Below are positions 1,966-28,224 of a DNA stretch of 64,000 nt, piece by piece. Origin of the DNA: Coptis chinensis. Taxonomy: Eukaryota > Streptophyta > Magnoliopsida > Ranunculales > Ranunculaceae. The number at the start of each line of letters is the position of its first letter. Position 1 is the stretch's first letter. Where the stretch lies: NCBI GenBank assembly GCA_015680905.1, contig CM027377.1, forward strand, positions 39,022,501-39,086,500. The letters run 5' to 3'. Position numbers and translations under genes: made by a program. The notes beneath the pieces were generated by a model. It was not told the origin of the DNA, searched no databases, and was given only the letters and a program-made list of their open reading frames with translations.

Positions 1966-1971
1966 GTGGGG

Positions 1972-3540: not shown

Positions 3541-3542
3541 AA

Positions 3543-3555
3543 TGGCGCCGCTGCC
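3543..3555 (+). other. Primer-binding site, tRNA-Asp type
   Basis: TGGCGCCGCTGCC begins two bases after the LTR end. The Athila-group site complementary to the 3' end of tRNA-Asp is TGGCGCCGTTGCC, so one base differs. This is where minus-strand DNA synthesis would be primed. Confidence 0.85.
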
Positions 3556-7231: not shown

Positions 7232-7516
7232 GATAAAGTCTCGAGTATCGACTATAAATTTCGTTTTTTGTGTTTGGTGCATTTCCTTTCATTTCAGATA
7301 TTGGTGAGTGCACCATTAAGGTAACCGGGCCCTCCCTATGGAATGTGTGGCTATAAGTACCGGATCCTAAGTCCACGTTTAATATAATTCACGTTTTCTA
7401 CTCTTGCATGTTTTCTCGGATTTTTGAGTCATGTTTCTCTATGGGGTGAATTATGTCATTATTGCTTATTGTTTTTCTATATGTTAATCTGTATTTATAA
7501 ATAAAAAAAAAAAATA

Positions 7517-7598
<82 letters not shown>

Positions 7599-8390
7599 TA
7601 ATAAACATAGTAAGATAGGAAGTCTCGAATCGACTTTAAAAAAAAAAAAAAAAAATTCTAAACTCTGTTGTAAAAAATTTGTTTGGGGGTGGGGTGTTCG
7701 TGTTTCTATCCTAGAATGTTTTATGTCCCATTAGAGTTGCTTAGGCCATTTAATTGCATTCCGATTCCGGTTGACATAATCTATGAATTTAGAGTTCATT
7801 CATTCGCATAACTTACGTCATGCACGCACTTCGAGGCATTTTCTATTATCTTATATGTCATCCACGGTCAGAATAGATTGTTTTATGGATCATTGGATTG
7901 GAAATTCTCTCCTAATCATTTCCATATCTCATTCGCAAAAATCGGACCGGTAACGAAGCGGCAATGTTAGTTTGAAGTTGCGCTAAAAATCGACAAAAAT
8001 TCAAAAAATTCGAATTGGGCTTGGGCCCAACCCAAGACGCGACGGCGCAAATAAGACTAGCGCCACTTTGTTTCCACCAACAAGTCGCGTTCTTCACTTC
8101 TCCAAACCGCCATTAACAACCAACAAAGCTTCAAATCCTAACTAAAAAATAAAATTAAAAAGAAACCTAACTACACCACGCCACACATCCAAATCAATTT
8201 CAAATCTCTCAAAAACCTTTCCACCACCACCTCCAGCCTTTTGCAAAACCAAAACCACCAAAAATCCAAAGATTGGAACTGCCGATCCACCACCGCCACC
8301 ACCGCGCACCACCACCATTGTTGTTCCGGTGAGGTTGTTCCTCATTGCTTCCTACACCTTCTACAAACCCTAAATCGATACAAACTTCCA
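7232..8390 (+). other. Inter-ORF segment with polypurine-like site
   Basis: No coding signal. It contains a short GGGCCCTCCC block near 7327, an (AT)n tract (7521-7594), an A-rich run (7638-7655), and at 7678-7695 a polypurine-like TTTGTTTGGGGGTGGGG, much like the true tract before the 3' LTR although no LTR follows here. From about 8020 a leader precedes ORF2; its decayed GCGC-rich part at 8035-8065 aligns with a clearer GGGGCGCAGGTGCGC copy in element D at about 61660. Confidence 0.65.
7521..7594. repeat. (AT)n microsatellite
   Basis: About 37 uninterrupted AT dinucleotides following an A-rich run. It is absent from the corresponding place in element D (about 62100), so it expanded in this copy. 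Confidence 0.97.
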
Positions 8391-9444
8391 ATGGCTCAAA
8401 AGGCGGATTTTTGCGAGCAAGCATTTATTGGCGACGCGTCCGCTACCGTTTTCTGGTGATGAAATGATTAGTAGTGATTGGGAGTAGCTTGTGGTACTCG
8501 ACCGACGCCTTTTACCACGAAGAGTTAGTCCGACGATTTTACAACATGAGGGAGTTGGAGGGGAATAGAATTTTCGTTACGGTGGCAAAGAGGAGGAAGG
8601 AACTAACTGTTGGGTTGTTGCCTGAGATTCTAGGCATTTCGCCTAGAATCCATCTGGATGCCACGTTACAGGAGTCCCAATACAATGGGGTAGAGCCTTT
8701 GAAGAACGTGACTGTTACCAATAGGAGCTACAATACAAGCTCGCATTGTGTTCGCGGGCATCCCTCGGAACCAACCGGCATTTGGCTGCGACTCGATGGA
8801 TTGGTCGAGCGCCCTAGGGAAGGAGAAGGTCGGCGACATCGGTTCGAACTGCCTCCACATTCGTGGATACTCCAGAGCGTAAGTATGAGTTACGTATCTT
8901 GGAGTTTTTGCCTAACATGATTAGGGGAGTAGGGAAGTCTATTGCACCTCTCCCTATGTTGATAACCAAGATCATGCTGAAGTTGAGAGCGACTCCGACG
9001 TCTGATAGGATTTACCTCACCCTACACCGAAATCCTCGTATTTATAAGGATTGTGTCCAACGAGTTTGGAGGTTGCCTGAGGATAGGGTAGTCGACGAGG
9101 AGGACGTCGGAAATGAGAATGACTCGGAGGACGAAGAGGACTTGACATGTTTTGATGATGATGCCTTGGAAAGGTGTTGGTCAGATGCAGAACGCATGGC
9201 TGTGATTCATCGTGGCATGCGTTCACTCAATACTATCTGTGAAAACCTCTGGACTCGACAAGCTACTATCCACCATAACTTCGAGATTCGTACCCAGCGA
9301 GAGGATGAGCGGTGGGAACAGATGATGTGGCCGAAGCTAGAAGCTCGGCGCCCGATTCGAGCCGATATGCTTGCGCGCTTCCCACCTCAAAGGGATTCTC
9401 TTCCGAGGATACATCATCGAGGCACGTCGCCCGAAAGAATTTAA
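8391..9444 (+). pseudogene. ORF2, Athila ORF1 / plant 'transposon protein'-like
   Basis: Start MAQKADFCEQAF at 8391. A stop or frameshift at about 8455 and another near 8750-8860 break it. The core (8474-8720) includes YHEELVRRFYNMRELEG, then a segment with LTVGLLPEILGI, the pattern seen in Athila ORF1 proteins and the 'putative plant transposon protein' family. The C-terminal part (8863-9444) has an acidic run (VDEEDVGNENDSEDEEDL) and a charged, probably helical end. A second copy lies on the minus strand at 60346-61359. ORF3 downstream looks like a divergent paralogue. The function of this protein family is not known to me; the family call is moderate. Confidence 0.7.
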
Positions 9445-10162
9445 TGGTGCTGGCCCATCGGGGATTTCGGGGAGCCATCTCGGGCGTGTGCCCTCTGCTA
9501 CCAGTACCGATGTGTTTAGGGATAGTATAGCTTGATGATTTTTATTTGTAGTTTTATTATTGTTAGTTATTTTAATGTCAGTTTTAATTCGGTAATTTGA
9601 ATTTTGTAGTGAAATGTACTTTGAATGAAAATTTTAATATAATGCGGTTATTTTCATTGTGCGTGGTTGTTTAATATTGATCCCACCTTCCCAAATTGTT
9701 TGGGGGTGGTATTATCTGTTCCAGCATGATTTTTTTATGACCCTCATTTTTAGAAGTTATTTCGGAGTCAGGGTGAGAATATTGGCGATCTGGGCATATC
9801 TATGAATAAATATTGGTTAGGATGAAATCCCGATAAGTTAAGTAGTTTTATCCTAAATTCAACCTAAAAGATACTAGGGTTGTTTTAGAATCAAGAATAT
9901 GAGTTGTTTCCGTTTCGGGTTTGAAAATTTTAGTATGCCATAAAAACTTTCTGGCAACTTCCTGATTCGTTTTAGCAACTTAAAACCTATAAAAACTTCA
10001 TTCATTATACACTCACAACCCACACTACACCTAACTTCCATCACTCACCTTTCACTCCCACGTTTCCGGTTGTTCTTCACCATATTCAAAAATCAACACC
10101 TCGGAGCGCACCTGCGCCCTAGTCTCTGTCAGAAAGTTTGGTAAAAGCGGCATTGCCAAAAG
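9445..10162 (+). other. Inter-ORF segment with second polypurine-like site and leader
   Basis: Non-coding. TTGTTTGGGGGTGG at about 9697-9709 is a second internal polypurine-like site, again with no LTR behind it. After AT-rich sequence, a leader carries GAGCGCACCTGCGCCC at 10104-10119, identical to the gag-leader motif. Confidence 0.6.
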
Positions 10163-10689
10163 GTGGCGACTTCTGGCGCTTCAAACAATGGAACTCGAAA
10201 ATCATCAGAGCGCACCTGCGCCCTGACCTTCGTAAACACAAAAATTTCCAGTTTTCTGCGGGTTGTTCCCGGATCATTTGCAGCTGTTCCAGAGCATCGT
10301 TTTGAGATCACATCTCCTACAATAATACCGGAACAGTCTTTCGAAGATTTGTTCCAAAGCACTACTTATGGTGCTTGGTTTTTGGCGATCACATAACGTA
10401 GGTGGGAATCGCTTTTATGGTAAAAACCTGGCTTGAACTTTATTCTCCAACACTAGCATCTTATTTTTACGATAACTGCATTTTCTTTGAGAGACCAGAT
10501 GGAGAACAAGTGTTCTCCATCAACATTGATGATGAACCAATGGAAATTACCAGGTTCTTGCTAGCATTTGTTCTTGGACTTGCTATGCCCGCTGAAATAC
10601 AAGACCCATGGTGTTATTGGGTAGATAATATGTATGTCTAGTTTAGCTCGAGCCCATAGCATGAGGCATAAGTACCTTCTTATGCCTGT
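10163..10689 (+). pseudogene. ORF3, 5' part (interrupted by CACTA insertion)
   Basis: Two overlapping open pieces in different frames (10163-10396 and 10402-10641, then 10634 onward) read as one decayed gene. The second piece has the arrangement of ORF2: YFYDNCIFFERPDGEQVF, then EITRFLLAFVLGLAM, compared with RRFYNMRELEGNRIFV and TVGLLPEILGI. It therefore looks like a diverged paralogue of ORF2. The true start is uncertain because the second copy of the leader 16-mer (10208-10223) lies inside the first open piece. Coding resumes after the CACTA element at 28225. Confidence 0.55.
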
Positions 10690-11250
10690 CACTATACCAA
10701 AACAGGACATCCCTAACAGTCAGAAACCGTTACTAAAAATATTTGTAACGGTTTTTATGCGTCACAGTTTGGGCGTTGCTAATTCGTTATTAATATTAGT
10801 AACGGTTTATAACCGTTACATAATTATTTATTGTAACAGTTTCTAACCGTTACTAAAATATTTACTAACGGTTTTCTTTGCTCAATTGTATTGCTCTTTA
10901 GCAACGGTTTTATAAAATTAGTAACGCTTTTTGGTGTTACTCTTTTTTAACATCAGTAACGGTTTTATAACATTAGTAACGCTTTTTTGTGTTACTCTTT
11001 TTTAACATCAATAACGGTTTTATAAAAATAGTAACGCTTTTTTGTGTTACTCTTTTCTAACATTAGTAACGATTTTATAAAGTTAGTAACGCTTTTTTAT
11101 GTTACTATTTTCTAACATTAGTAACGCTTTTATAAAGTTAGTAACCCTTTTTTGTGTTACTCTTTTCTAACATTAGTAACGCTTTTATAAAATTAGTAAC
11201 GCTTTTTTGTGTTACTTATTGCAAAGCTTAGTAACGGTGAAGAACCGTTA
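10690..11250. repeat. CACTA left terminus and 55-bp subterminal repeat array
   Basis: After the 13-bp terminal motif come scattered GTAACGGTTTT motifs in both orientations, then six tandem copies of a 55-bp unit whose GTAAC boxes begin at 10921, 10976, 11031, 11086, 11141 and 11196. Each unit holds an imperfect inverted pair, GTAACGC and GTGTTAC, around a T-run. Subterminal repeats of this kind are the binding sites of TNPA-type proteins in En/Spm elements. Confidence 0.9.
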
Positions 11251-12350
11251 CAAAACTATTTCATATGTAAAAAAATATAAAATACCCCAAAACCACCCCC
11301 CCCCCCCCCTTTTTGGGAGACTACTTAACCTGCATAAAGATGCCCCCACTTATTGGGTATTTTACAATCGTCCATAATATAAACAAGAAATCTTACAAGT
11401 ACATCCAATCACATAATCTTTTATTAAAATAACATCACCAAAACGTCTTTCATAAATAGGACTTGCCACGAATGAAATACACACTGTTTTCCAAATCAAT
11501 GGGACTTGTCCTTAAACTCAAGCTCTCATATCATTTGTACAAAACTAGCACCTTCGGTAGGTTGTAAGCATCGGGGGATGACTTTGGGATGGTATCATCG
11601 AAAAAGTCCCTTTCATCTTATACACCAATAAATAAATAAATAAAAGGAGTCGAAAGCAAGTAGAAAACAAATATGTATATATAGATATATACTTATATCC
11701 TATTCTTAAGTAGTAGCTCCTTATACTCAAACTACGGAATTCAGAAAAAGAGTATGGTAGCATAATTCTTAAGTAGCGGTATGTTTTGTCCCTTCCAAGA
11801 GATCGGAAAGTTCAATTATTTATTTTCACTGGTCCAACAACCAAACTCACAAAAATGTGGCAACAGTGGTCTCATACTCCTAACAATATGAGCAATTCAA
11901 ACTCCAATAAAAACTGTTTCCACTTTGAGCAGTCTTCAAAGATCCTACTTTTGACTTCGTTTTGTGCCTTCGAGGAAAAAAAATATTTGACTTAAGGAGG
12001 TGTTCTCTCGTCTCATATACAACCCTACATACTCTATTAAATCCATGGGAAGAGTAAGAGAACAGTTCTATTGATTATTACTAAAGAAGCTCATGGAGTC
12101 CAAAAAAAGCTATATGCTGAAGATTACTGACAATTCTTTAAGGCTAAATAGCTAAACAAAGTAAACAATTGTTTAAGCTATATGCTGAAGATTACTACTA
12201 GTGTGTATCTACGGGTATGATCATACTATTTGCAACAATTCTTTAAGGTTAAATAGCTAAACAAAGTAAACAAAAAAAAACAAAATCATTCACAACAATT
12301 CTTTGGAGCTTTCAAGAAATTTTCGCAAACACGACACCTTATACAGCAGT
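11251..12350. other. CACTA interior, no gene recognised
   Basis: AT-rich sequence with a C14-15 run near 11295. A duplicated phrase, TTAAGCTATATGCTGAAGATTACT and its partner, appears twice around 12110-12200, and CAACAATTCTTT recurs at about 12230 and 12295. I see no protein family. Short open frames (11545-11763, 11786-11995) have no support. Confidence 0.5.
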
Positions 12351-12960
12351 TTATACTTGAGCAGATTCTAGAACGAGATTAGCGTATTTGTAAGTACGCA
12401 AAGAGAGTGCCTTGGTGTTTTCAATAATCTGTTCGCACTGCAAGTCGGATCGAGAGAAGAAAGGGAGTGAGTTGGAAAGGGCTAGCCGACAAAGGCGAAA
12501 ATGAATGCTTAGCGGGGAGGAACACCGGTTGAACACTTACACATTCACATGATTGGGTTCCATGACAACAGTTCCGACTTGGAATCAATCTTTCGTCAAG
12601 CTTTGAATTTCGCGACAAGATTCACTATCCATCTTTCAGCCTCGTCATAAGTCATATTCCACTTTTTCCGCAAGTGTTCTCGTGGGATGTAAATGAAAAG
12701 ACAGGATGAATGGACACTGAATTTCTGCGACGTCACAAATTACTAGATGAACAAAGTGAAACTAATTTACATATAAAACTGATTCTTCAAGTTGCATTTA
12801 ATTACCCTATATCAATGCACTGATGTATTTGCACTAAGTTTCAAATATGAAAAGACGGGCATTTTCGAGAAACTCATCCCTCAAAGGTACTGTAGTAAAG
12901 TTGCCTTCTTCAACACGTTTTCCCAAGAAAGGATCATTCAAGATAACCCGCACGCAGTCT
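12351..12960 (-). pseudogene. Captured fragment of eIF3 subunit e
   Basis: Read on the minus strand, 12960-12835 encodes VILNDPFLGKRVEEGNF and then VPLRDEFLENARLFIFET, strongly like the middle of plant eIF3e, a subunit of translation initiation factor 3. Next, about 12670-12560 is a frameshifted version of the following part (DEAERWIVNL, KIDSKS). After a CTTGCAG splice acceptor at 12438, the last exon (12437-12351) reads CEQIIENTKALSLRTYK and ends at a TAA. Order and spacing match the eIF3e C-terminal half, with introns retained, so the capture was of genomic DNA. Stops and shifts rule out a working product. Confidence 0.82.
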
Positions 12961-14909
12961 AGAGATTCAAAGGCAGAAAAATATTTCAGAGACATGCAGA
13001 AAGCAGAAGCATAAAATGCAACGTGAAACAATCACAAACACATAAAATAGCATCAAGCTTATGTAAAGATCACAGATGCATATCTTCTCCCCCACATGTT
13101 GGTATTCCAAGAAGTGATCGGAATTGCTTTACCCCGGGTAAGAGTATCACACGCCTGCTGAAACTAGTATGAGACTTGATGATGTGCATAAAGTAACCCT
13201 CCTCAATTTGTTCGAGGCTGTTCCACGCTCTCGAATCAAGTAGAGATCTCCGGTGAAGGTGTCATACGAGTTTGTGCGGGTTGAAGATCAGAAGTAGCGA
13301 AGGTTTTCGTGAGAGCAAAACTGGCTGAATGCATGACTTGTTGTTTCCCATTCATTTAGGCCAATATTGCCATGGATAAATGGAGGTGGGACTAAGAACC
13401 CAATTGTTTACAAAGGACTTTGTAAATTGTCGTGTTCTTGGGATAGTAATGCAAAATCTCGGTATACTCAAGGTCGATATTACCTACCGGATGGACGTAT
13501 TGAATCCTCGAGCTGTAGAGAATTGCTTGAGTTAATGATTCTAGATAACCAACTTATTCGAGGAAGATGCATCAAACTATTTGCAGCAGACCCCTACCAT
13601 ATTGGGATTCCTCGGTCATGGCGCGGCCGAGAAATCGGGCCGAATATAGAGAGCATTTTTTGCCAATCCCATGAGTAGTACAAGTTTGTTGTAGACAAAA
13701 CTGTTCATTGGCCGATGATATTACGAGTTCTCCTACTGCAATATACATAGATATTTCATTAACCTCCACAAATGTCAGTTCTCAAGTCTGCAGGTCACAT
13801 ATCCGTCTCAGTAGGACCTTTATCCCATTCCCATGCCCAGGCTTCCAAGTTAAGGGTCAACCCGTTGATGGACTTGAAAGCATATATACTCTAGATCACA
13901 AAAATTTACCAAGTCTACAAATGTAAAAAAAAATATACCGCAAGGCCGATGACAAGACGCACAATATTATTAGAACTATTCCAGTAAATTTGGACAATAT
14001 CCTTTGAATAATATGTCAAACGGTTTTGTTTGTTGGTCAAGAAGGAGCAAAATTACTATTGCTTGGAGCTGGGCTTCCTCCAGTTTGCATTTAAGCCATT
14101 TGGTGGCTGATTATGTGGCAACCTGGCTATATGCTCACGGCAGCTGCCTTGCAGGCTTCTATTTTTTGCGTAAGTAGAATAAGAATAAGCGTGTTTTCTT
14201 CGGCCTAGAGGTGCTTGAATCTGTTGATGTCAAAGGCAAAAAAGTTAGAACATAAATAATTTTAGCACCAGCACCTTCAAATAGAAGGAAAGAGCATCTA
14301 TCAAATAGCAGAGGACCACCCTGTTCTAGAAGTCTACAAGTGCAAATCATCAGGCCTTATATTCATCAAAGAGTGATACTTTAAAATTCTGAGCTAGAGG
14401 CTATTACTACCACGTACCACAAGAACGGATCGTTTTCCAGCTATATCGACTAAACTTGCACCAAACACAATAATCGAAAGAGCAGAACAAAATCTCATTT
14501 GTATTTTTAAGCTACTAAGCATATCAAAATGGTCTTTAAAAAGCACATTTCCAGTGGATTTAGTAAGCAAACAAGCATGCCTCATGGCGAAGCGGCGAAA
14601 GAATTGATTCAAGTAATAACGGACGTCATTACTATTTACTAGTCTAGAATATGTTGTTTTAGCAAAGAGATCATTCTAATACCATTACATACCCCTAACC
14701 AGAATAAGATCTCGATCGACTCACACTTAAGGAAACCGGAATTTCAACCAATCAGAAGTTCATAGACTAGTTGGCACTGAAGGATTTAGCTGGTAACTTA
14801 TGTTTTAAATGTCACCGCAATTTCCAAATTTTACAGACAAGATGATTTAAATATATGATAATGGAGTGTTAATAACTTAAAAAAGAAAGCAAGGAAAAGC
14901 ACCAATTAC
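12961..14909. other. CACTA interior, unidentified, possibly more captured DNA
   Basis: The longest open frame (13367-13678, plus strand, 103 residues) has a normal-looking composition, with segments such as GRYYLPDGRIESS and GIPRSWRGREIGP, but I recognise no family. Since the sequence on both sides is captured host DNA, this may be further gene fragments or introns. 14340-14909 sits just behind the pyruvate kinase splice donor and is probably its intron. I assign no function. Confidence 0.4.
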
Positions 14910-15043
14910 CTCCTTCCATTGGCCACATCTGTAATTTCAGCTCTAGTAGGCAGACCTGACTTGACAAGTGACTCCAAAACCTGTGTTGCCCAGATGACTG
15001 GAATGTGAGCAGCTCCACATATAGATATAATTTCTTCTTGAAT
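14910..15043 (-). pseudogene. Captured exon of pyruvate kinase
   Basis: Minus strand: [18 protein letters not shown], then [19 protein letters not shown] and TDVANGRR, a near-perfect match to the conserved C-terminal part of plant pyruvate kinase (glycolysis, phosphoenolpyruvate to pyruvate). The exon ends with a clean splice donor, GGAG|GTAATT, at 14910/14909. It is fused directly, without an intron, to the end of the FAR1-related fragment, in a different frame. Only about 45 residues are present, so no enzyme can result. Confidence 0.88.
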
Positions 15044-16388
15044 GTTACAGTGAAAACTGTCAATATATGCCTACAGAGAATGCCTGAAAATTCAAACGTC
15101 CGACAGCTGCAACTTGCTCTCATTTCAGGAACATTTAAGGTGACAATGTATGCCTTGTCGTCATCCTCAAACTTTGCTACCCGAAAAGTGCTAATTGCAC
15201 CATCCCCCTCAATTTTATTTGAAGTATAAACAAACGTTTCAACTAATTCATCTTGAAATTTTGCAATTATTTTCCTCGTGTACAAGTTTGCGGCTTGTTT
15301 CTCCATTGGGGTAGGAGTCTTCAGTACTGGTGTGGTGCAGATTGTCTCGAAATCCGCTTCAATTTCTTTCTCAAACCAATTTTCTAAAGCTCTTTCATCT
15401 CGGACGAAAAGAACACGGGCGGCGTGGTCCGTTGGTTAGCGTAACCATCAAAAATGAACTAACACTTTCATACCCTTGATTCATGGAGATTGCGGCAAAG
15501 AAAGTATCACGGAAATATCTGGGGCCCGGTGTCTACGAGCATTATACAAGGCCTGAAGCCAATCATTTTTCCTAAGATCATATTTGTCGACTAAAGAACT
15601 CCAAGATGATTCAAACTCCTCAATCGTCTCGGTCAAGTTGATGCACTTATAAAGTTCCCCTTGGAAAGTTGGATGGGTATGGCAGACATGACCAAGTCTT
15701 TCCTGACCTTCCCTTAAAATGTGCCATTTACAAATACAGTGGCGAGTTCAGAAAAACTTGAGCAAGCTGCTGCTCAGATAGCCCTCGGGTCTCCGATCTG
15801 TTGTTAGAGAAACAGAGCACGACCGGACATTGCTTCAAGCCAAGTCTTGAAGAGCCACAAAAGGAAGACTCGGACTCGTCAAAAAGATTAGAGCACAACC
15901 AAACGGCACCATCGCCGTGATGGTTCATACCGATGAATGGGCGTATGGAACCCGACATCTTGGTTAGGTGCGTACATAGTGTCAAAAGTAACAACATCCC
16001 CAGAGTGAATGTAAGCATTTCTTGACCTTGCATCTGCCCAAAAACATTAGTCATATGGCCCTCGTCGCCGAAGTTGCATTCGCGTAAAAAGAAGCCGGGG
16101 ATTCTCACCGCATACGCTTTGAAATAATCAAGAAGATTCCCGGCGTCTCTCCCAATGGTTTTCTTTACGTTAGAAGATCTACCATAACTTGAGGACCAGC
16201 ATTTCTCATTTGGGCGATTTGTTTCTGGCTGTGGGGAACATTCTGGCGGGCGATTTGGTTCGACAGAGACGCGGTTTCCATCCATGGACATAAACATGAC
16301 CCCATCGGAGGAAACTCCCACCCTCGATAAGTTTCAAAGAATGGTCTTTTGCTGCCCTCGCAAAATGCCTACGAGGTCTAAGGTAATG
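15044..16388 (-). pseudogene. Captured FAR1-related (FRS) gene fragment
   Basis: FHY3/FAR1-related proteins are plant transcription factors derived from MULE transposase. On the minus strand the pieces follow family order: the end of the FAR1 DNA-binding domain with RPRRHFARAAK and SSDGVMFMSMDGNRV, the transposase-like domain (KKTIGRDAGNLLDYFKAY, IGMNHHGDGAVWLCSNL, FDESESSF), a region with LVMSAIP/HPTFQ-type residues, [34 protein letters not shown], and the SWIM zinc finger [15 protein letters not shown]. At least six frameshifts occur. The N-terminal zinc-finger start is missing: the sequence begins in the middle, joined to CNOT9. It most resembles the FRS3/FRS5 branch, from memory only. Confidence 0.88.
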
Positions 16389-16409
16389 CACTTTAATATT
16401 ATATAAGGT

Positions 16410-16718
16410 AAAGGGAGCCAAATCCTGGAAAATCTCTCTTCTACAAAAGGATGAAATCAATTAATATTATATATAATTAAATAAAAAAGAAGTAAGTAAT
16501 TAAATTAAATAAAGAACCTTGGATAAATCAAGAAGAGCATTTTCACGAAGATCGGGATTACTCAATTCGGAAACCAATTGTTCAGCACAAGCCATTTTCT
16601 GCTCTTTGTCGGTGTTATTATTATTATTGTTATTGGAAAGAGAAAGAGCGGCAGCTGCAGATGAAAATGAGGATCGATTAAATGACACAACGAATTGCTG
16701 CTGACCCAAATTCGCCAT
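16410..16718 (-). pseudogene. Captured CNOT9 (RCD1-like) exons 1 and 2 (partial)
   Basis: CNOT9 is a subunit of the CCR4-NOT deadenylase complex. Exon 1 (16718-16518, minus) reads MANLGQQQ, a Ser/Asn-rich stretch, then MACAEQLVSELSNPDLREN and ALLDLSK, followed by a donor AAG|GTTCTT. A 77-bp intron (16517-16441) ends TTTTGTAG, and exon 2 gives REIFQDLAPF, which is the CNOT9 continuation. Homology stops there and runs within about 20 bp into the FRS fragment. The retained intron shows DNA-level capture. The start ATG and both splice sites look intact, so a chimeric transcript starting here is conceivable. Confidence 0.88.
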
Positions 16719-16738
16719 GCAAACCAAAAAAAACAAAA

Positions 16739-17770
16739 CTAATAATTATTGTCCTGTTGCAACATAAAACTCCCTAGATTTGTCAGCAACCAAGACTTAG
16801 CAGTGGAGGTTGGTGGAAGGTGGTAGAGGGGGAATATCTTACTTGAACGGATAGCAATGGAGGTTCTTCCGGTAATGTTGCTCGCCTTCATTGTCACCAA
16901 GACGGAGTCCAGAAATATCAGATGTTTGCTTAAGGCCGTCGTGCCTGGTGGCAGGAACAACTCTAGAATATAATCATCACATCCAGACAACCCAGTGTAA
17001 GTGCTACGTAAACAGATAGCAAAGCAGCTACTTAACCCAAACATGCGTGCGTAGTGTACCAAGGGATACTCACTTTTGCTCAACTGTGTCATATCACTAG
17101 AGAAACACGAGCTTTTTGATGAAAATGCCCTCCCACCAACCCCCGCCCTTCGTAGAAGTGATGCTCGACCAAGCGCCGCCAAAACCCACATGTGTCAAGA
17201 TCTACTACATAGAATGCTACATCGGTTGTTCACATGCAAACTTGCCCCATACAAACTTCCATCAAAGCTTTTGCAGCTCTTCTTCACACCACCACCACCG
17301 TCATTACACACCCCGCTATGCTTGCATGGAACCCGAGGTTTGAGCTAAAGTTAATTTATGGCTCTCGCATACCGTGGTCAATATTTGAAACATTTCCACA
17401 AGGGCATTTTGACGCACACCATTGCAGATCTGCTTTTAATGCATATACCTGTGAGTAGCAGTTGTAGAAGGAAAATAAGTATTTAGAATACAATGGCGTC
17501 TAACCTCAGAGCTTGGGTGATCCAACAATTGAACTCTTGATTTACACCGCGAAACAACTCAACTTGGGTCACTGAAAAGTAATGCGCAATGCCATAGCAA
17601 GAAACAATCATCGGATAAAATAAATTCTGCATTCTCCAGATGAACACACTTTGAAACACTAGTAAAATAGATAGATAGAGTAAAACCAACCTCAAGAGCT
17701 TTTTACGGACTTTATTATTGAGATTATCCCAAGTCTTCAAAAAATGCACATTCTCTATAACGAATGGCAC
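16739..17770. other. CACTA interior, possible captured fragments, not identified
   Basis: Upstream of the CNOT9 start on the minus strand. A minus-strand open frame of 150 residues (16739-17191) and plus-strand frames (17076-17458) overlap. One plus-strand stretch near 17360-17455 (YGSRIPWSIFETFPQGHFD, then AHHCRSAFNAYTC) has a protein-like composition and is followed by GTGAGT, a possible splice donor. I cannot name a family. CNOT9 promoter or 5' flank may be included. Confidence 0.4.
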
Positions 17771-19963
17771 TTTCTTATAAGTAGAGTTAAACTATTAATC
17801 ACATTAGACTTCATTTCTTATTGTCTTGCCTAACAAAATACTAGTTTAATCCAGATTACACGACTGCGCCAACCTAGTGATAGTCCTGAAACTGACACTA
17901 CAGTCTACAGACAGTGATACAATCCCATTGCTTGCTAAATTCATTCCAGAATACCAAACTAGTAACATACTAAAATGGTCAAGTCACCCATAAGTTGTCA
18001 GGTGTACAATGAAGCGATCCAACCGAGCCATTACCAAGACACTACATGAGTTACGTTCACACTTATAAAGCACTCAATGTCTAAATTACTAGAAGATCTC
18101 GCTCAAACAACAAACTCTCATTCATTTAACCGACACAATACATTATGAACAATATTCATACAATAAACAACATATCAAATAAGCTAAGAACCCAATCAAC
18201 AAATACAAGTTCAAAAATCCCAAGTAAATTTGTGATTCGAAAAGAAAAATCAATATATTTGATTCGAAATAACAACAATCCATTTGGAAAATAGATGGGC
18301 TAATTTCAAAGGAAAATGAAAACATGTATATTGAATTGAACCTGTCAAATCAATTGTATCCCAAGCTTGACTGATGAATCGAAACGTAAATTGATAGAAG
18401 AGTAATCAAAAGTAATAATCTACAAAGAAAACTGAAAAAATCATAATTAAAGCTTTTGGATTCTAACCTTAGAGATTGTAGGGTTTATGAGGAGTTAATC
18501 ACTGAAATGAGGTGATGAAAAAAAAAAGCTCACTACTTCTAGCAAACGAAAAGAGAACGTCGGATTTGAAGAAACTAAAGGGAATATATTGATACTTGAC
18601 CATAGATTGTGATTTGATTAGAATAGATTAGACCTTCAATCGCACAAACACAATCAATAAAACTATCTTTTTTTTTGTTGATATAAAAACCCATAAAAGG
18701 AAGAAAATTGAGACAAGGGGGTCACTTGAATAATTTTTGGAAAAACTGTCTAGGGTATTCTTGATTGCTCATGAGTAATTACTTCCCACACTCTAAACCA
18801 AGTACCTTGACACCATAGGGCATACATTTAGCATAATATTTAGGGGCAACTCACACTAACAAAGACATACCTTATTTAAGGTTAGAAGCAGTCAGAGACC
18901 ATACCACTAAGGATTGGATTCAAAATTGGTACCAACCAGGCTACCACTAGATAACTAGCCAGCAGATTCAAAACTTATGCAGTTTTCTTTCACTAACAAT
19001 GACAATATATTTGAAACCAAGAAAGCAATGATAGCTAATAAATAGATTATTAAAAAAAGGCTTATACTCAAGTAGCTAATTAAAACCAACAATGCATATA
19101 AGAAAGAGGTAACGTTTATGACACATTATACAAGTAATGGTGTTGCAAGTATTATTTTTCCACAAGAGCTTATGTGCACATCATAGAAACACAAGTAACA
19201 TTGAGTCTCCCACACACAAATATCATTCTTTTCTATAATAACAGTTAATAGTGAAAATGAAAAGAAGAAAAATAATATACAGAAAAGATGAAGGTGCTAC
19301 ACTTACATGGTTGGAAACCGAGCATTTATCCGCAACCAAGTGAGCTGAAGCTGCATGCAGCGTCATCTAAGAAATGATATTCAGAAAACGACAATATATG
19401 ACTCAATAATTCATAAGCGAAACTATAGAGATACGAGAAATAATACTACCCAACTATAGAGATACGACAAAAGAAACTAAACTAAGTTACAACATGTTAA
19501 GCAAAGACTAGTACACACCTTTAGTTCGAGAATCCCAACGTTCAATGGAAAAACAGTCCAAGGCTCCACCATCCTCCCTCCTCCTTTATCCGGGCTTGGG
19601 ACCGGCAATGCAAACCAATTATATTAATTTGCACAGGCGGAGTTAAAAATGGGTTAGGGCTTTCTTCAACCTACTAAGCAAACAAGCATACATACACTGC
19701 AATCAAATTTAATAAATAGATATAGTACGAACATATTAAAGTTAATACTCATCCATACCAAAAAAAAAGACCATAAGTTTGTCAAGTCACTATGACATCC
19801 ATATTAAACAAAAAACAAACGGCATTCAAAACATAAAGAAGCCAAACCATACTAAAAAATCCCAAGTTCAGAAAGTTTGCATATCCCAAACAACTTATTA
19901 AGAAAACTGCATCCTTGACTCGAGCCAAATTAAAGGACCTCCAGCACTAAAACCATCCAAAAA
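17771..19963. other. CACTA interior between captured fragments and TNPA
   Basis: AT-rich, no protein match. On the minus strand, 18590-18460 looks like a plant gene leader: a pyrimidine-rich run, CATAAACCCTACAATCTC with the telo-box AAACCCTA (about 18482-18490), then AAG|GTTAGAATCC, a plausible splice donor. This may be the captured 5' end of one more host gene. The remainder shows nothing I can support. Confidence 0.45.
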
Positions 19964-21709
19964 TCAAACTCCATCTTGGGGCCCATCGTAAACAAGAGCA
20001 TCACCAACCAAGACTTCCTCTATGTAGACCTTTTTTTCACCTGCGAGAACTTTTCTGCCATTGCAATCTCCAGCTGTCTCTGTCATGACATACCCCTTAG
20101 CAACCACTACACCATCCCTATCTAATAAGGATACATTTGGTGAAGAACCAAGCGCCCCGAAGGAGGATTCAAATTTGCAAACATATTCATCAAGTTTTGT
20201 TGAGTCGAAAGTGACGAAACGTAATTGGAACCGACTTGGTTTCTAGTGTTAGGCCGCACGGTTGTTGAGTAGTTGATGTTCCATTGTTTTTAACAGCCTT
20301 AAGTACATCCTGACACAATTTATAGTAACAATTGGTCATACATAATGAAATTGTATGCAAGAAAGCACAAGTGCAAACTGCAAACTCACCTTTAACACGC
20401 CTATGACATTAGATAAGGAAGACTTCATCTCATTCATTTCCCCCTTCAACTCAGAATTGGATGAAGAGCTTGCTTGCTGCAATAATGCCTTGGCAATACA
20501 CATGACGTTGCAATTGCTTCTTAGACTTGTTGGAGCTGATTCCACGTGTTCTACTCCCTTTGTCAGGCCCAAAGACTTCAGACAACTCATCATTATCGAA
20601 GTCTACTTCCATTACACTGCCCTCACCACCCGCACTTGCTTCTTTTCTTCTTTTATTAGAAGCCTCCACTTGTTCCTATATGAGTAATACATGCATAAAT
20701 TATGAGAATGGTATGCAAGTATGCAACATAACCTATATACAATACCAACACACAGGTAAGTTCAAGCTTCAATGTTATTAGAACTTACATAATGGGTTTG
20801 AGCGCTCGCTAATATAGTTCCATCACGACGCTCATGTCCTTTTTTCCAACTATCTACCCGTCCATGTTTTCTACTAGGATCTTCTTTATCCTACAAAAAT
20901 AATCCTTAAATAGTTGTTAGCATAAGGTGATAAGAAAACGTTAGTACAAGAATAGACACCTACCATTTTATCCAATTTATGGGCATATGTGCCCCCGCCC
21001 ATTAGTATGTCGATATATGTTCTTTTTGGCATTCTCAAGATTCTTTTTGCGTTTCTAGCTCTCACTTCAGCGGTACTCTCATTTTCGACAAACGCAGCCC
21101 AATGATTTGGATCCTTGCCATCCGGGCATGCTGCAATAGCTTCTTCCACGCCCCCGCACTTACGCAAAAAATCTCTTTCCGAAAGGCATACTTTTGATGA
21201 ACTTTTGGGAAAAGTCCTTTTCAACTTCTCGGCATGCCGTTGCTTGGGGAACATTAGGCTCAAATTCTTCCTACATGAACAAAGTGATGTTTGTTCATTT
21301 CATATTAAGTAAATTTCCACACATAGGGCTGGACAACATGTAGATATAGGATTGGAAAAACATACTAATTATCAAGAATAATGGATGCTATCATTGAAAT
21401 TAAAGTACATGTAAACCATACCATTAATTTGTTCCAGACATTATCCTTGAAGCTTCCATCTATTTTTCTCCAATCTTTGTAATGAATTGGAATACGAGCT
21501 CGAACATAAACTCCAACCTGGGTATTCCATTTGGCATGGTTAGGACCCACAGCGACGCCATCCTCATTGAACTCTATAGGTAACTTGGTAATCGTTGGTA
21601 AAGCTTCCGAAGGCTGAGATGTATGTGAGTCGGAAGTTAAATTATGAGATGGATGTGGGACTGAACTCGAAGGTTGGGAAGCAGTATGTTGTGATTGACC
21701 TGATGACAT
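19964..21709 (-). pseudogene. TNPA-like En/Spm protein (plant transposase Ptta/En/Spm family)
   Basis: In En/Spm elements TNPA binds the subterminal repeats and assists TNP2. Exon pieces on the minus strand: 21709-about 21420 with a Ser/His/Pro-rich start and AKWNTQVGVYVRARIPIHYK, DWRKIDGSFKDNVWNKL; 21263-20960 with RDFLRKCGGVEEAIAACPDG, HWAAFVENESTAEVRARNAKR; 20810-20660 and 20600-20390, charged and coiled-coil-like; C-terminus 20170-19964 with DRDGVVVAKGYVMTETAG and VLVGDALVYDG before the TGA. These fit the family's order. Frame breaks and introns are hard to separate by eye; whether any copy is intact is uncertain. Confidence 0.82.
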
Positions 21710-21933
21710 TATTAAATAGCCTAATATGACAAAAAAATTGTTAGAACAGAGAGGTAAAACTAGGATACCACAAAAAAAAAATGAAAAAGTTCAAAAGTAT
21801 ACATTTATAAAGACCACTCTTGATAATAAAAAAACATAACTCTCACCTAATTGCACAAACAAACTTCAAAATAGAAAAAGTAGAAAATGAGAAGTTTGCA
21901 TGCAACTAAGAATCTTAAAAATATCTAAGAATC

Positions 21934-24900
21934 TTAAAAATGTGATAATGCAACTATTACAATCAGGTTAGACTTTGCATCAAAGTTTCGCAAATTAGGT
22001 TGGTCCTCAAGAATAGATTGGAAGTCGGTTGGTGCATCTAGTTCATCAACTCGACTTGTCAATCGCCTAGGTGAATTTATCACTACCCACCAATTAGGAT
22101 TTCTCAAATCCTTTGAGTAAAATACTTGACTAGCCTCGGAAGCAAGAATCGCCGGCTCATCAATATACTGATCAACACTCTTTAGCCTATTGAGATTAAC
22201 CATCACCAAATTAGAATCTTGACAAAGTTTACAACCATTGGTCTTGTCCTCCACCTTCACCCAATTGCAATAAAAGACAACATGCTGGAAGGTCGTATAG
22301 TCCAGCTCTATTATCTGTTCGATAACCCCATACCACTTAGTCGATGCATCAATGGGATTTTTGTCCTTCCTACTTGACGTAAATGTAGTGATTGCATTCA
22401 TGCAAACACCACTGTCTTGTGTAGCAACTGTTTCATCATGCGACCTAGTAGAGAACACAAAACCATTAACACGATACTTTTTATACGTTTTAGCTTTGAA
22501 CAATGGTCCTTGGACAAATCGCCATAAGTCACAATTTGTGTCTTTTTCAGCCAACAACTGTGAAGTGAAAAAAAAAACGACAATTAGAAAGTTAAAAGTA
22601 CAAATTGTAATATCCTAGTAAACTAAATACATGAATAGAAGAAAACAATACCTTGTCATATAACCACACAATGAACTCAGTTTGTATCTCCACTTCTGTC
22701 TTTGCTATCCCTTTTCTTTTACCACGTGCACTTGCTTGCAAGGCACGATACTCACTGCAATTTGTTTATGCAGTTTGACATGACTATTTATTATGACTTT
22801 CTAGACTAGTAATTTCAAGTCAAATGTGTCAAAAAAGAAATCAAACCTATAATGTTCATCAAGCTTTTCGACGCCTAGTCGAAAAAAGAACCCATCTACG
22901 GATTTTTGTATCCATTGTTCCTTGCCTAGGGTCACGCTTTTACCCTCAAGTATAGGCCCCTCATCACAATACTCTCCATCTTCATCTAGAAACACCTCAC
23001 GAGTAGCTTTGTGATTTCCATCCCGTGAATTTGGCATGTACTCCATAGCATACCTAAATGATTCGAAACAATATAGGACTCTTAATAGAGCCTTCAACAT
23101 AGCGTTTATTGCTCGGAATATTTTTACACTCCTTCATTGCCCTATTAAAATAAACAAATCCAAAATTGTACTTAGTAGTTTCGATGATAATTGCCATTAA
23201 ATATGAAATAAAGGTAAAATTGTACATACCGTTCAAATGGATACATCCACCTAGGATACACGGGTCCACAAATCAGCCCTTCATCAGCCAAATGCACCAA
23301 AAGGTGGATGCTGATATCAAAAAAAGCGGTTGGAAAATACTTTTCCAACACACACAATGCCTCTGCTACCATGTATTTGGCAACTTGGATTTCCTTTCGG
23401 ATTAAGACTTTTGAACATAGGAGATTAAAGAATAAGCTAATCTGGTGAATAGCTCTACGCAAATCACGATGTTTTGGAAAAGCGTGTTGAAGCAAAACTG
23501 GAAGCAAGTAACACATAATGACGTGATAGTCGTGTGATTTCATTGTAAGCAAACCAAGAGGACTCAAAGTGACAACATTTTTTAAATTCGACAAAAAACC
23601 TGAAGGAAGCTTCAAGTTCTTCAAAATTGTGCAAAACTCAAGTTTCTCATCTTTATTCAAGACAAATGGGGCCATTGGTTTAACAGATCTCCCTGTGATT
23701 GGGTCTGTTTGCATCCACTGACCACTATGAATCCCCATTTTCTTCAAATCCTCTCTCGCTTTAACTGTATCCTTTGTTTTCTCTTTCTTGTCAAGAATCG
23801 CATTTATTATGTGTTCTGCCACATTCTTCTCATTGTGCATCACATCAATAACATGTCGAATCTTATGTTTCGGCCAATATTCCATTTCAAAGAGAATAGA
23901 CCTCTTATACCATGCTTCAGTAACTTCATAATCTTCATCATCTCCAATAGCAACCACATCTACATCATCTACACTCCGTTTGGCACCTTTTAATACTTTA
24001 CCAGGTACATAATGGACACGACTTAGCATTTTCTCAATTACTTCTCCCTTTAACCTTGGTGGAGGGGGGTTTAACTCTTTTGTCTTAAGTCCTAAGTACT
24101 TGCCCTGCCTAAATGGGTGATCAGATTTAAGAAACATCCGGTAATTTGTATAAACGATCTTCCTTGCATTCCCAAGATGCATAGACGGAGTTTCATCACC
24201 ACAAATAGGACAAGCTTTGTAACCATGTGTTACACGGTACCGATAAGTTACCATACGAGGTAAATCATGAATCCCCACATCAACATAGCCCTCAAAGTAA
24301 AGTGCTCTCTTTTGTACATGTCATAAGCTGCCACCCCTTCTTTCCATAACTGTTGTAACTCATCAACTAGTGGTTGAAGAAATACATCAATGTTTTGACT
24401 TCGGTGCCTTCGCCCCGGTATTAATAATGACATCATATGGAACTCAGATTTCATGCACAAAGGCGGAGGGAGATTATAAGGAACTATGTAAACAAAGGCC
24501 AACAATCGTAACAGTGGATTGAACTCCACGTGGATTGAATCCATCGGTTGCAATCCCAAGCCAAACATTACGCCCTTCCTTAGCAAAGTCCGGCCAATCA
24601 TCTTTACATGTCTTCCACTGAAGTGAATCGATTGGGTTTCGCGATATAATTCCAAGAAGGTGTCGCTCTATTGTGCCATGTCATTTCGCGCTATCCATGC
24701 TATTGTGTACAACCTCTTGAGTCTTGGAATCAAAGGAAAATGTCTCAATACTTTTCGCCTCTTTTGTTTCTTTCTTCCCGTTTTTCCCTCCTTCACTTTG
24801 TATCTAGGTGTTTCACATTGAGGACATACCGTTAAGTCAACTTCAGATCTTCCAATATAACATACAGTTGTTTTCGCATGCATCTATACACTTGGCTTTC

Positions 24901-25557
24901 ATTCCCAAATCTTTTAACATTGCCTTCATTACGGGATACTTTAAAGGCAACGTGTTTCCTTCCGCAACCATTTTCTTAACATGGACAAGAGCGCTGGGGT
25001 CACTTGTTTTCCGACCAATTATATTGCTTCTTCAAGTTTTGTAGGTCCACCACGCCGAGAGTTGTTATAGGAGCCTCGCATGAAGGGTATAATTTTTCTT
25101 CCGCTTTTTGTTTATATTCATTATACCTTTTACCCAAATCTGGTTCAAGAACATATGGTGGTTCCAAATCTTCCCCCTCACTTTCATCGCCTCCATTCAA
25201 AATCACCGCTAGCCCTTCATGTATGCCATAAGCAACGCCAACAAGATTCCCCATTCTAAGTCCTTCACCTCATCGTTTTTTTCTGATCTCGGTCTACCAT
25301 TCGATCCTTATATGGGTTCTTACCATGTAAAACCCATACACGTATATGTTGATTCTATACCATGCAAAATCAAATGTTTTCTCACTATATCAAACGGAAA
25401 CCTTTTCCTATTTCGCACTTATTACAAGGGCAAGGACACGTGGTCGATGTAAGGTCCTTGTCACTAGCAAATTGAATAAAATCCGACACCCTTGCTTGTA
25501 TACAATCCCAAATCTGTCAATTTCATTCATCCAATCCTTTGGAATTGGTTGAGACAT
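21934..25557 (-). pseudogene. TNP2-type CACTA transposase
   Basis: The catalytic partner that cuts the element ends. Minus-strand order is typical: transposase-associated domain from ATG at 25557 (PIPKDWMNEIDRF, then a CPCNKC motif and HLILHGIES); zinc-like CPQCETPRY at about 24810; TNP2 core 24655-23170 with HYVPGK and KACPICGDETPSMHL, KIVYTNYRMFL; DUF4218 region with CVLEKYFPTAFFDISIHLL and GPVYPRWMYPFERY at 23400-23230; DUF4216 region 22557-21934 with WYGVIEQIIELDY and VVFYCNWV. Several frameshifts (near 24270, 24660, 24890, 25000, 25440) break it. The C-terminal exons are largely open. Assignment is secure; activity is unlikely. Confidence 0.9.
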
Positions 25558-26736
25558 CTTGCAAAATAACTCCTTACACTACACCGTTTAGAATAAAATA
25601 AAATCTACACAAAATAGTTTAGAGGCAAAAGGATGAAAGTGACTTTGAGCTTGCAATATGACATATCTGACCACAACTATTTACTTAACTTCATTATACC
25701 AAATCAGGGAGTTCCTTCAATATGCAAGTCTAGTATAGGTAATAGCAGAGTATCATTTTTTTTCGGTAGAAATATCGGCAAAGTATCAAACCACTAAGGT
25801 AAGTATACTCAATATTTTAATCCAGTCACCATAACAAATTTGACAAGGAAACACTAAAGAAAAGTACAAACACTCGAGTTCACTCATGACAATGACGACA
25901 AGATATTTGTCCAAATAATGACATATAAGAAAAGATCTCTCAAAGTCAGTTTTAACACCATCGATTAGTTTACTTACCACAATCATTTTACTTGAAAAAA
26001 AACCATAGGATAAAACAACGATAATAACATGTAAACAGATAATAACCACAAAGATGCATTTCCACAAACAATCCAGAGACTCAAAAGAAGAGTTCAAACA
26101 GCATAGTATTCATATATTGAATAGTACTAATAGAGCATACCCATTACATGCCTGATTAAACCAACAAACTGAAACAGAGAACTAACAACTCCCAAAAACA
26201 ATTGTTTTTTTATGCCTGATTGTTATGTAATTTGCGTTTTTCTTGGTTACAAAATTATTTGCGTGAGTTTCTAATGGGCTTTGAATTTTATATTGTATGA
26301 ACTCAAATATAAATATTTGCGTGGGTTTCTGCTATGAATTTTATAATTTGCGTGTGCTATGAATTTTATATAATATTTGCGTGGGTTTCCTATGAATTTT
26401 ATATTGCCCAACTATGAATTTCCTACACTATGGGGGCATATGTGTGAGCAATGTCTACTTGCAGGCCCAAGTCCCCCCGTGTACTCATAGTTTAAATCCA
26501 AGTCCTCATTGCAAGAGATCAATTATCTATCACAAGTAAGGGAAGAAAAAGTAAAAGGGACAAACAAAGTAAAATAGTAAAGTGAAAAGATGGTCTTAAG
26601 TCTAAATACACTAAAGAACACCCACTGTAGAGAAATCTATTATATGGTCTTGCACTAGGTCATTGAATTTCAGTACAAAAACATCAAATCCTAGGCTCTC
26701 TGATCAAAGTTTCTTTAGAAGAAAGGAAACGTACAT
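25558..26736. other. 5' region of the CACTA transposase gene, with short repeats
   Basis: Non-coding. From about 26240 to 26425 an imperfect repeat of ATTTGCGTGGGTTTC...CTATGAATTTTATA occurs about five times; the same unit returns at 27240-27345. The TNP2 promoter should lie between here and the right terminus. Open frame 25786-26097 has no family support. Confidence 0.5.
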
Positions 26737-26894
26737 ATGGGTGTTGCAGGGACTTTGGAATATCTTTCTAGTTCGCTAAGCAGTAACCATGAAAAGAGCA
26801 AGAAAAATAAACTATTGCAAACTGGGGAACTTATGGTCAGTATGGACTGTGATGGGTGTGAGCTTAAAGTTAAGAAAACCCTCTCTTCTGAAAG
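26737..26894 (+). pseudogene. Captured first exon of a HIPP (heavy-metal-associated isoprenylated) gene
   Basis: HIPPs are small plant metal-binding proteins with an HMA domain and a C-terminal isoprenylation site. This exon starts MGVAGTLEYLSSSLSS, a hallmark of the group, then KKNKLLQTGELMVSMDCDGC, giving the metal-binding M-D-C-D-G-C motif, then ELKVKKTLSS. It ends at GAAAG|GTATCT, a good splice donor at 26894/26895. The second exon with the rest of the HMA domain and the CaaX tail is not found downstream. It lies opposite in strand to the other captured pieces and upstream of the transposase, in the promoter side of the element. Confidence 0.88.
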
Positions 26895-27719
26895 GTATCT
26901 CTACTACTTAACCCCTTAAAATGTATTTGCATATATAAAGCAGCGCATATGATACATAATATGGTTGTACTCAAAACAACAAACCATATGATAGTGGGTA
27001 TAGGTTAGAATATAATAGGTAGATTGAGCAAATAGTATACTAACACAGGCTATTGTATACGAAACTGACATGTAAGGACTCGGAAGCACAGGGACCGTGA
27101 ATAGGACATATACTCACCATCGAAGCAGAATTTAGGATATCGCAGCGGCGCAATGGGATGAGATTCGCATACTCCCAATTTCAAGTCAAGTAAACGGGGA
27201 AAGAATTCCCAATCTTTGTCTGAATGAGGGAGATTCAATACTTGCATGGGTTTCCTGCTATGAATTTTATATTTGCGTGTGCTATGAATTTTATATAATA
27301 TTTGTGTGGGTTTCCTGCTATGAATTTTATCTCTCAACTCAAATATTTTGAACCTGCTTTTCTCCAGCTTTTCTTTTATTTTTTGATCTCTCCTTAACTG
27401 GTTTGATGGTGTACAAGGAAAACTAAAGGTCTCGTACACTAGGCTTCAGTATATTTTAGCATAACAAGTTCAGTAATGCCTAAGGTGCTTGTTTGGCATG
27501 CTTCAACAGCACATACTTCTCAGTAGTGTGTGTCAGGTGTACATGGATGGATAACCAAGAAAACTTATTTGAAGAACACAAGATATCAAATAAAAATCAA
27601 AAATTTTTGTTGTATTTCAAAATAAATATCATACCTTTGAAGCAAACTAGCACCGAAATTACTTGCAATGGTGGATTAAACACCTAGAGGAGTGTGAAAA
27701 AAAAGCATAAAAGTGGAAA
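26895..27719. other. CACTA interior, repeats, no gene
   Basis: Begins as the likely HIPP intron. Contains three further copies of the GGGTTTCCTGCTATGAATTTTAT unit (27240-27345). Minus-strand open frame 27050-27439 is largely made by these repeats and is not supported as a gene. Confidence 0.5.
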
Positions 27720-28221
27720 TTAGTTAATGAAAAAAAAACATAAAAAGCATAAGAAGAAGGAAAAGGAAGAGAAAAACTACCGGATGCCTGCGGTGGTGGT
27801 AAGAAGTGTTGTTTGGTTGAGAGAGAGAGAGAGAGGGATGTCGGTGGTATGGCGAAGTGTTTGTTTGTTTGGTTGAAAAACAGGGGATGAAAAAATATAA
27901 AAGAGAGAAGAGAGAAGAGAGAAGAGAGAAGAGCGCGGTTTTTTTTTCGCCCAAAATTCTAATTTTCGATTTTATTTAGTTTCTATTATATATATATATA
28001 TTTTTTTAATCTAGTTTTTATTATCTTAATAACCTTTACGGTTTTATGTCAAAACAAAACTTTATAAATACTTTACAAATTAATTCTCAAATCGGGGAAA
28101 ATTAACTAACACATTATTTGCAATTTTAACACTAAATAAACGTTAGGAACTTAGTTACGCCTAAAAAGCGTTAGTAAACAAAAAAAAGTGTCGTTCTTCG
28201 ATTTTTGTTTTTGGTGTAGTG
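27720..28221. repeat. CACTA right subterminal region and terminus
   Basis: GA-rich low complexity (27820-27835, 27901-27937), then T-rich sequence with inverted copies of the left-end motif: TTTACGGTTTTA at about 28035, AGTTACGCC and AAGCGTTAG at 28150-28175. The terminus reads GGTGTAGTG, followed by TGT target duplication. The repeat array is much thinner than on the left. Confidence 0.85.
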
Positions 28222-28224
28222 TGT

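Follow-up and report, generated by a model that had tools for sequence, protein, structure and literature searches.

How CACTA transposons acquire pieces of host genes is still debated. In the parts of the publications considered here, the soybean element Tgm-Express1 (5.7 kb) is described as holding pieces of five unrelated host genes with retained introns (PMC1947982), and many CACTA captures are reported for wheat chromosome 3B, where the presence of one gene in two CACTA families was read by the authors as recent DNA exchange (PMC4290129). For Pack-TYPE elements, in which coding DNA is shuffled between CACTA ends, tandem insertion combined with aberrant excision was proposed as the mechanism (PMC8903248, PMC13317346), and the captured gene pieces of Chenopodium CACTA elements, one gene type per element, are placed in the 5' region (PMC8978399). 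Capture of reverse-transcribed spliced mRNA was described for break repair in mouse zygotes (PMC4516963). Here, a 17.5-kb CACTA element (En/Spm superfamily) of Coptis chinensis is analyzed, which occupies positions 10690-28221 of a 64,000-nucleotide stretch of contig CM027377.1 (assembly GCA_015680905.1, positions 39,022,501 to 39,086,500). The whole stretch is referred to as the window, and positions are those of the window unless another locus is named. With high confidence, the element is interpreted as a decayed CACTA with a mosaic interior, in which host-gene pieces were put together via template-switching repair and exchange between copies and families. In total, seven donors contributed to it, five on the minus and two on the plus strand.

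An initial annotation had proposed a single CACTA element with an intact target-site duplication (TSD), which is borne out by 13-bp terminal inverted repeats (TIRs), the TGT duplication and a tnp2 transposase. The left TIR CACTATACCAAAA (10690-10702, plus strand) and the right TIR CACTACACCAAAA (28209-28221, minus strand) differ by one mismatch in 13 positions and are flanked by TGT at 10687-10689 and again at 28222-28224. Furthermore, the five donors named at that stage (eIF3e, pyruvate kinase, a FAR1-related factor, CNOT9 and HIPP) proved to be real: each gave domain or Protein Data Bank (PDB) matches, and alignment of the fragments to the same genome (936 Mb in 116 contigs, cited below as C1, C2 and so on) located a parent for every one of them. 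The eIF3e piece (12229-13095, minus strand) comprises C-terminal exons, two introns and the 3' part of the gene; it matches its parent at C1:54.194-54.1975 Mb, with both introns, at 89%, and its joined exon pieces match PDB eIF3e chains (E 1.5e-9). A pyruvate kinase exon (14909-15040) together with an intron makes up 14615-15045 on the minus strand (PDB 8e-9; Pfam PK 1.3e-9), matching the gene at C6:93.41 Mb at 97.2% and a duplicate at C7:51.59 Mb at 98.8%. It is joined to the FAR1-related fragment (15043-16395, minus strand), which carries MULE and SWIM domains (Pfam 5e-11 and 6e-11) and about seven frame changes, counted by eye. The FAR1 parent at C9:83.83 Mb (93.9%) holds FAR1, MULE and SWIM domains in a single open frame of 761 amino acids and is hence uninformative on capture from DNA versus RNA. 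The 5' end of CNOT9, with ATG exon, intron and the start of exon 2, lies at 16411-16756 on the minus strand (parent C4:55.286 Mb, 97%; PDB match E 2.7e-6). HIPP is represented by exon 1 and its donor splice site (26641-26929, plus strand; parent C4:18.264 Mb, 94.9% over 26695-26929) and is weak at the domain level, with a Pfam HMA match of 0.003, under its cut-off, and a PDB match to Os01g0507700 of 2e-4. A second locus of the HIPP piece, C9:27674542-27675065, is 96.8% identical to 26407-26929, a longer match than that of the parent, and perhaps represents a further HIPP-carrying element or relic. At the parent loci of these five donors the exons read open, the whole-gene check covering the 761-amino-acid FAR1 frame only. 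As annotated, eIF3e, pyruvate kinase, FAR1 and CNOT9 lie downstream of the TNPA region on the strand of the transposase (minus) and HIPP is on the plus strand, and introns or splice sites are kept in eIF3e, CNOT9, pyruvate kinase and HIPP when these are compared with their parents.

The donor list was incomplete, however, as it had missed a NIN-like protein (NLP) gene, a TFIIIC-like gene and a second piece of pyruvate kinase. The NLP piece, the sixth donor (16868-17715, minus strand), consists of a GAF exon, an intron and an upstream part; its joined frames match GAF_NLP at 8.8e-53, and the parent at C3:122.332 Mb (89.6%) has a stop-free frame of 332 amino acids. Along with this parent, NLP loci at C4:31.50 and C4:107.73 Mb are free of stops across almost all of the domain. 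The second pyruvate kinase piece (19238-19450, minus strand) is a stretch upstream of the N-terminal exon and is 100% identical to positions 7912-8124 of locus J. The remaining donor, at 13090-14231 on the plus strand, is a gene that we take, on weak backing, to encode a TFIIIC subunit: its parent matches the C-terminal ends of yeast tau138 and human GTF3C1 at E-values of 0.39-0.88, under a better-scoring (0.019) unrelated hit. The parent (C3:85.119-85.122 Mb, 91-92% exon by exon) matches in three blocks that are spaced there by 1217 bp with GT-AG and by 98 bp with GC-AG borders, and the joined parental exons form one frame across both joins. Both introns are precisely absent in all five copies aligned (window and the sister copies A, B, C and D introduced below), and across both exon joins copy B shows no difference from the spliced parent. 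Since two parental introns are missing exactly, the piece has passed through spliced RNA; the template apparently was a spliced RNA copy and not chromosomal DNA. The match of the piece stops at 14231, and no A-run precedes the point where the older element resumes, although an A-run is not required of an internal piece. The earlier claim that capture was from DNA thus agrees with the intron and splice-site evidence in eIF3e, CNOT9, pyruvate kinase and HIPP and does not extend to the intron-free TFIIIC-like piece.

Relatives of the element carrying eIF3e and pyruvate kinase only, or other subsets of the fragments, were found, as the initial annotation had suggested looking for. Matches in the genome number 39 for pyruvate kinase plus FAR1, 25 for NLP, 27 for CNOT9 and 34 for HIPP, and at least 48 for the TFIIIC-like piece with its neighbours, at least 41 for eIF3e and at least 42 for 17.7-19.45 kb, the last three being lower bounds with 40 of 68, 66 and 77 candidates scored, respectively. 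All seven donors, judged by position, occur at no fewer than six loci (the window, C7:49.84, C4:16.75, C6:55.95, C7:68.12 and C3:79.49 Mb), and the TFIIIC-like piece is whole in at least seven. Four of the five other seven-donor loci were read as 20-kb stretches (A-D): copy B is collinear with the element from end to end, copy A is without most of the transposase region, an insert interrupts copy C near 24.4 kb, and copy D was followed to about 26.9 kb. Both element ends are also present in A, B and a sister CACTA termed H, and the 3-bp TSDs match in all four elements read at both ends (TGT in the window, CAC in A, AAA in B and ACT in H), so that they are distinct in the three window-type copies among them. 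The locus C1:72.37 Mb, considered as an intermediate, was dropped when it proved to be a deletion derivative, i.e., of window type with 14903-16379 deleted.

Among the subset elements, an F-type with at least eight loci has an eIF3e piece cut at 12889-12898, contains FAR1 and is devoid of the pyruvate kinase exon; in the three loci that were read (F, F2 and F3), a longer FAR1 piece follows directly and runs past the junction of the window element. Between FAR1 and CNOT9, element F (C2:78.56 Mb) has a 1.3-kb insertion at its positions 7719-9007 with TAGGGGTGGG ends and the 8-bp duplication CTACGAGG, which appears hAT-like by eye. Element R (C2:42.0 Mb) holds part of eIF3e, pyruvate kinase, HIPP and the stretch 17709-19480; nothing in it matched FAR1, CNOT9 or NLP, in whose place about 3.2 kb of other DNA is located. 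Pyruvate kinase is also present in elements X (together with eIF3e) and H, whose parts read contain no FAR1, CNOT9 or NLP; in H (C9:46504864-46517513, 12.65 kb, TSD ACT) it is the only matched donor. Based on these subset copies, eIF3e, pyruvate kinase and HIPP are probably older than the FAR1-CNOT9-NLP block, and the TFIIIC-like piece was probably a late addition.

The junctions suggest how the pieces were joined. Exact overlaps between donors amount to 6 bp at eIF3e/TFIIIC-like, 2 bp at TFIIIC-like/older element, 3 bp at pyruvate kinase/FAR1 and 2 bp at NLP/older element; overlaps of 2 bp are within chance, that of 6 bp hardly. Fillers occur at the FAR1/CNOT9 and CNOT9/NLP junctions. The first of these (16393-16410) includes the 13-mer TTAATATTATATA, which recurs 68 bp away at 16461 in the CNOT9 intron, whereas each strand of the window would be expected to hold 0.016 copies. 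Microhomology and a locally templated filler fit repair synthesis with template switching, and strand-annealing repair of this kind would explain the donor-to-donor joins.

The FAR1-CNOT9 fusion could also have arisen first at a free-standing chimeric locus and have been taken up en bloc, a possibility that we rate as less likely than not. The candidate, locus G (C7:97153778-97155670), is a CNOT9-FAR1 fusion with an open stretch of 441 amino acids and FAR1 98.4% identical to the parent. It has the same FAR1/CNOT9 junction and filler as the element, and a 2-bp CNOT9 deletion is common to the window, A and G and not found in the parent; moreover, FAR1 at G is only 1.1-1.6% from its parent, and 20 kb of sequence at this locus (C7:97.15 Mb) contain no CACTA end of the window family. 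On the other hand, positions 16797-16852, an edge of the NLP cassette, are present at G too, which may hence be what is left of an NLP-bearing CACTA, or else have been derived later.

Evidence for exchange between families comes from NLP. Element N1 (C1:8263472-8271113, 7.64 kb) has the TIR CACTACAA, the ends CACTACAAC and CACTACAAT and the TSD GTT on both sides; it contains NLP and no CNOT9. Its ends differ from those of the window element and define a different CACTA family, and over the length of N1 the two elements match only at 16797-17715. NLP-only loci had been considered as intermediates of the window family and were dropped because N1 has different ends. The linker at 16757-16867 contains, at 16797-16867, sequence common to the other family; a 97-bp stretch (16756-16852) is also found on the small contigs C28, C37 and C51 at 92%. 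With respect to the parent, the cassette spans 523-1688 in N1 and 523-1355 in the window family and thus begins at the same boundary, 523. Eight copies were compared, three N-type and five window/F-type (window, A, B, D and F), leaving out locus K and copy C with its NLP match of 74%. In this alignment, both groups differ from the parent at 97 columns, 65 of which fall outside the region matched by the parent; inside that region, the groups have 22 substitutions and 10 inserted bases in common, compared with 4 N-only and 12 window/F-only columns. A TGA stop (17230-17232) and insertions of 9 bp and 3 bp are present in 8 of 8 copies and absent in the parent. A stop and two insertions shared in this way point to one NLP capture and later transfer between families, for which transfer from the N-type to the window family would be the simplest reading.

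For this cassette, the sharing of the parent boundary, the stop and both insertions with a CACTA of different ends largely contradicts a simple stepwise collector, in which one CACTA lineage took all seven pieces independently from chromosomal genes and no families exchanged DNA. Gene capture by CACTA elements is established (PMC1947982, PMC4290129), as far as these sources describe it, and the eIF3e, CNOT9, pyruvate kinase, HIPP and NLP pieces do retain introns or splice sites; the intron-free TFIIIC-like piece is a further obstacle, and we regard such a history as unlikely.

Instead, assembly by repair and exchange may have proceeded as follows. An older lineage would have held eIF3e, two pyruvate kinase pieces and HIPP. 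About 3.2 kb between the pyruvate kinase exon and 17.7 kb would then have given way to the FAR1-CNOT9-NLP block, with NLP contributed by the different CACTA family. In the line leading to the window copy, loss of the FAR1 tail would have fused FAR1 to pyruvate kinase, and spliced TFIIIC-like cDNA would have been stitched in beside eIF3e. The finished element, presumably mobilized in trans, would have spread to six further loci of its type, one of them now a deletion derivative. Probably, therefore, not all of the cargo was captured by the window element itself. In a broader proposal, to which we lean with some reserve, CACTA families with different ends share a cargo pool and swap cassettes during break repair, which also takes up spliced RNA copies, and one transposon gathers exons of many genes, most of them captured elsewhere.

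Nested carriers (Helitron, Pack-MULE or hAT) inside the CACTA are a very improbable source of the block. It is common for Helitrons to carry several gene pieces that point the same way. However, the donors abut or nearly abut, and consensus-based scans, in which absence is not proof, gave no nested carrier ends bounding the block. No hairpin-CTRR end bounds the block and the element has a 3-bp duplication; the one Helitron-like 3' end in the element is located inside FAR1, with none downstream of the block, and none of four TIR pairs with 8-11-bp duplications encloses it.

The copies are decayed. In six FAR1 copies, C-to-T changes affect 10-17% of CHG sites; the corresponding figures are 1-2% for CHH and 1-11% for CG sites. 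Such a bias would be expected of CHG-methylated, silenced DNA. Because of this CHG-biased decay, dating in years is unsafe for the divergences obtained: FAR1 differs from its parent by 5.2-7.8% and its copies from one another by 5.8-9.2%, and copies of the transposase stretch differ by 2.0-3.6%. The NLP, FAR1 and eIF3e pieces of the window copy carry stops and frame changes, and the sequences offer nothing in support of a functional product. A functional chimeric gene under selection is accordingly the least credible explanation of the cargo: pieces of five of the seven donors are on one strand (not unusual by a hand binomial estimate), several retain splice sites, and pieces of Tgm-Express1 are described as spliced into transcripts (PMC1947982, in the part considered), but the stops and frame changes, the CHG C-to-T decay measured in six copies and FAR1 copies 6-9% apart all speak against it.

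Several observations weigh against the mosaic history preferred here. CNOT9 diverges from its parent by 2.3% in the window and 2.6% at C1:72.37 Mb versus 5.6-7.4% in A-D and F, and the trees of the segments disagree, notably for CNOT9, so that later exchange blurs the order of the steps; exchange between copies probably did continue, judging from these divergences. The right end of N1 was chosen among four TAGTG candidates for a flank matching the left one. Of the shared NLP differences, some could have arisen on the parent branch or come from an unseen paralogous donor, and the stop is the only clearly disabling change among them, both insertions being in frame. For the window-type copies, the TSD evidence comes from the window, A and B only, as the ones read at both ends. 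The TFIIIC-like locus at C3:85.12 Mb, besides being weakly named, carries a frame change within the first of its blocks, and with 40 of 68 candidates scored, the source could instead have been the DNA of a retrocopy elsewhere that already lacked the introns. Finally, frame breaks could include assembly errors.

The transposon genes of the element are on the minus strand. TNPD, the transposase gene (21937-25269), matches Transposase_21 (E 1.9e-28), DUF4218 and DUF4216 in Pfam, with the tnp2 domain spread over alternating frames (profile 5-47, 53-127 and 127-211); assembly errors aside, such alternation means that the gene is broken in the window copy. No intact transposase frame was found there, and four further copies are without a minus-strand frame of more than 420 amino acids. 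A second gene at 19964-21790 (minus strand), which by its position we take to be TNPA-like, shows open frames in the expected place and no Pfam matches. Subterminal repeats (TAACGGTT / AGTAACG) occupy 10714-11260 with a 55-bp tandem at 10898-11238; they are dense at the left end, whereas in the last 500 bp the longer counted motifs have no exact occurrence and diverged forms were seen by eye. The left end of H is 96% identical to that of the window element, and no other CACTA-starting site in the 64-kb window matches either element end at up to one mismatch. Imperfect direct repeats (26278-26402 and 27237-27330, about 92% in the best part) lie on both sides of the HIPP-bearing segment. Domain searches of 10 more open reading frames and of eight joined-frame reads from stretches without an assigned origin gave no Pfam match over the cut-off; PDB matches of 27053-27445 and 13337-13675 were chance-like, the latter turning out to be TFIIIC-like by genome comparison, while 17716-18470 and 18837-19238 match other dispersed loci and were left unnamed. 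Rfam at gathering score gave no match in the window, and scans of viral contigs for NLP and transposase relatives confirmed none.

Outside the element (1-10689 and 28222-64000), the window contains several nested, diverged copies of gypsy-type retroelements in both orientations, about 70-94% alike and presumably Athila-like. The CACTA element seems to sit inside one of them, and H sits in the same kind of retroelement. A tandem array of approximately 86-bp units with CGCTACAACAAAA-like motifs (34242-34976) could represent subterminal repeats of another transposon.

CACTA elements with gene fragments are already known; what is new is that the mosaic history can be traced and that one piece is derived from RNA. 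Among the titles and abstract beginnings considered, with few subscription papers, no CACTA with seven donors or a spliced-RNA-derived piece was recognized, which is not proof of absence. Since parent loci of all seven donors, subset elements and readable junctions occur in one genome, order, template (DNA or RNA) and route become directly testable and need not be guessed from a single chimera. Moreover, the number of pieces in an element can overstate the captures made by that element.

In comparison with known systems, as far as the consulted parts of the sources describe them, the window element resembles Pack-CACTA or Pack-TYPE elements in holding captured host coding DNA between its TIRs, here with seven parent loci located. 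In contrast to that class, which is defined as lacking transposase similarity (PMC8903248), it has transposase matches, and its junctions are donor-donor joins with microhomology and templated filler, unlike the Pack-TYPE mechanism (PMC8903248, PMC13317346). Captured gene pieces are also common to the Chenopodium CACTA elements, in which they occupy the 5' region, whereas the main block of the window element is downstream of TNPA (PMC8978399). As in mouse zygotes, spliced-RNA sequence would fill a DNA break, in this case in a transposon and not at CRISPR breaks (PMC4516963). As among the wheat 3B elements, one captured gene is present in two CACTA families; no seven-donor element is described in that source as consulted, and here the exchange is backed by a shared stop, insertions and boundaries (PMC4290129). 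Tgm-Express1 is similar in that CACTA ends surround several unrelated host-gene pieces with introns (PMC1947982). However, while Tgm-Express1 is 5.7 kb and composed of such pieces, the C. chinensis element extends over 17.5 kb with a broken transposase gene and seven donors, one apparently RNA-derived, and its history could be followed in sister copies and in a second family.

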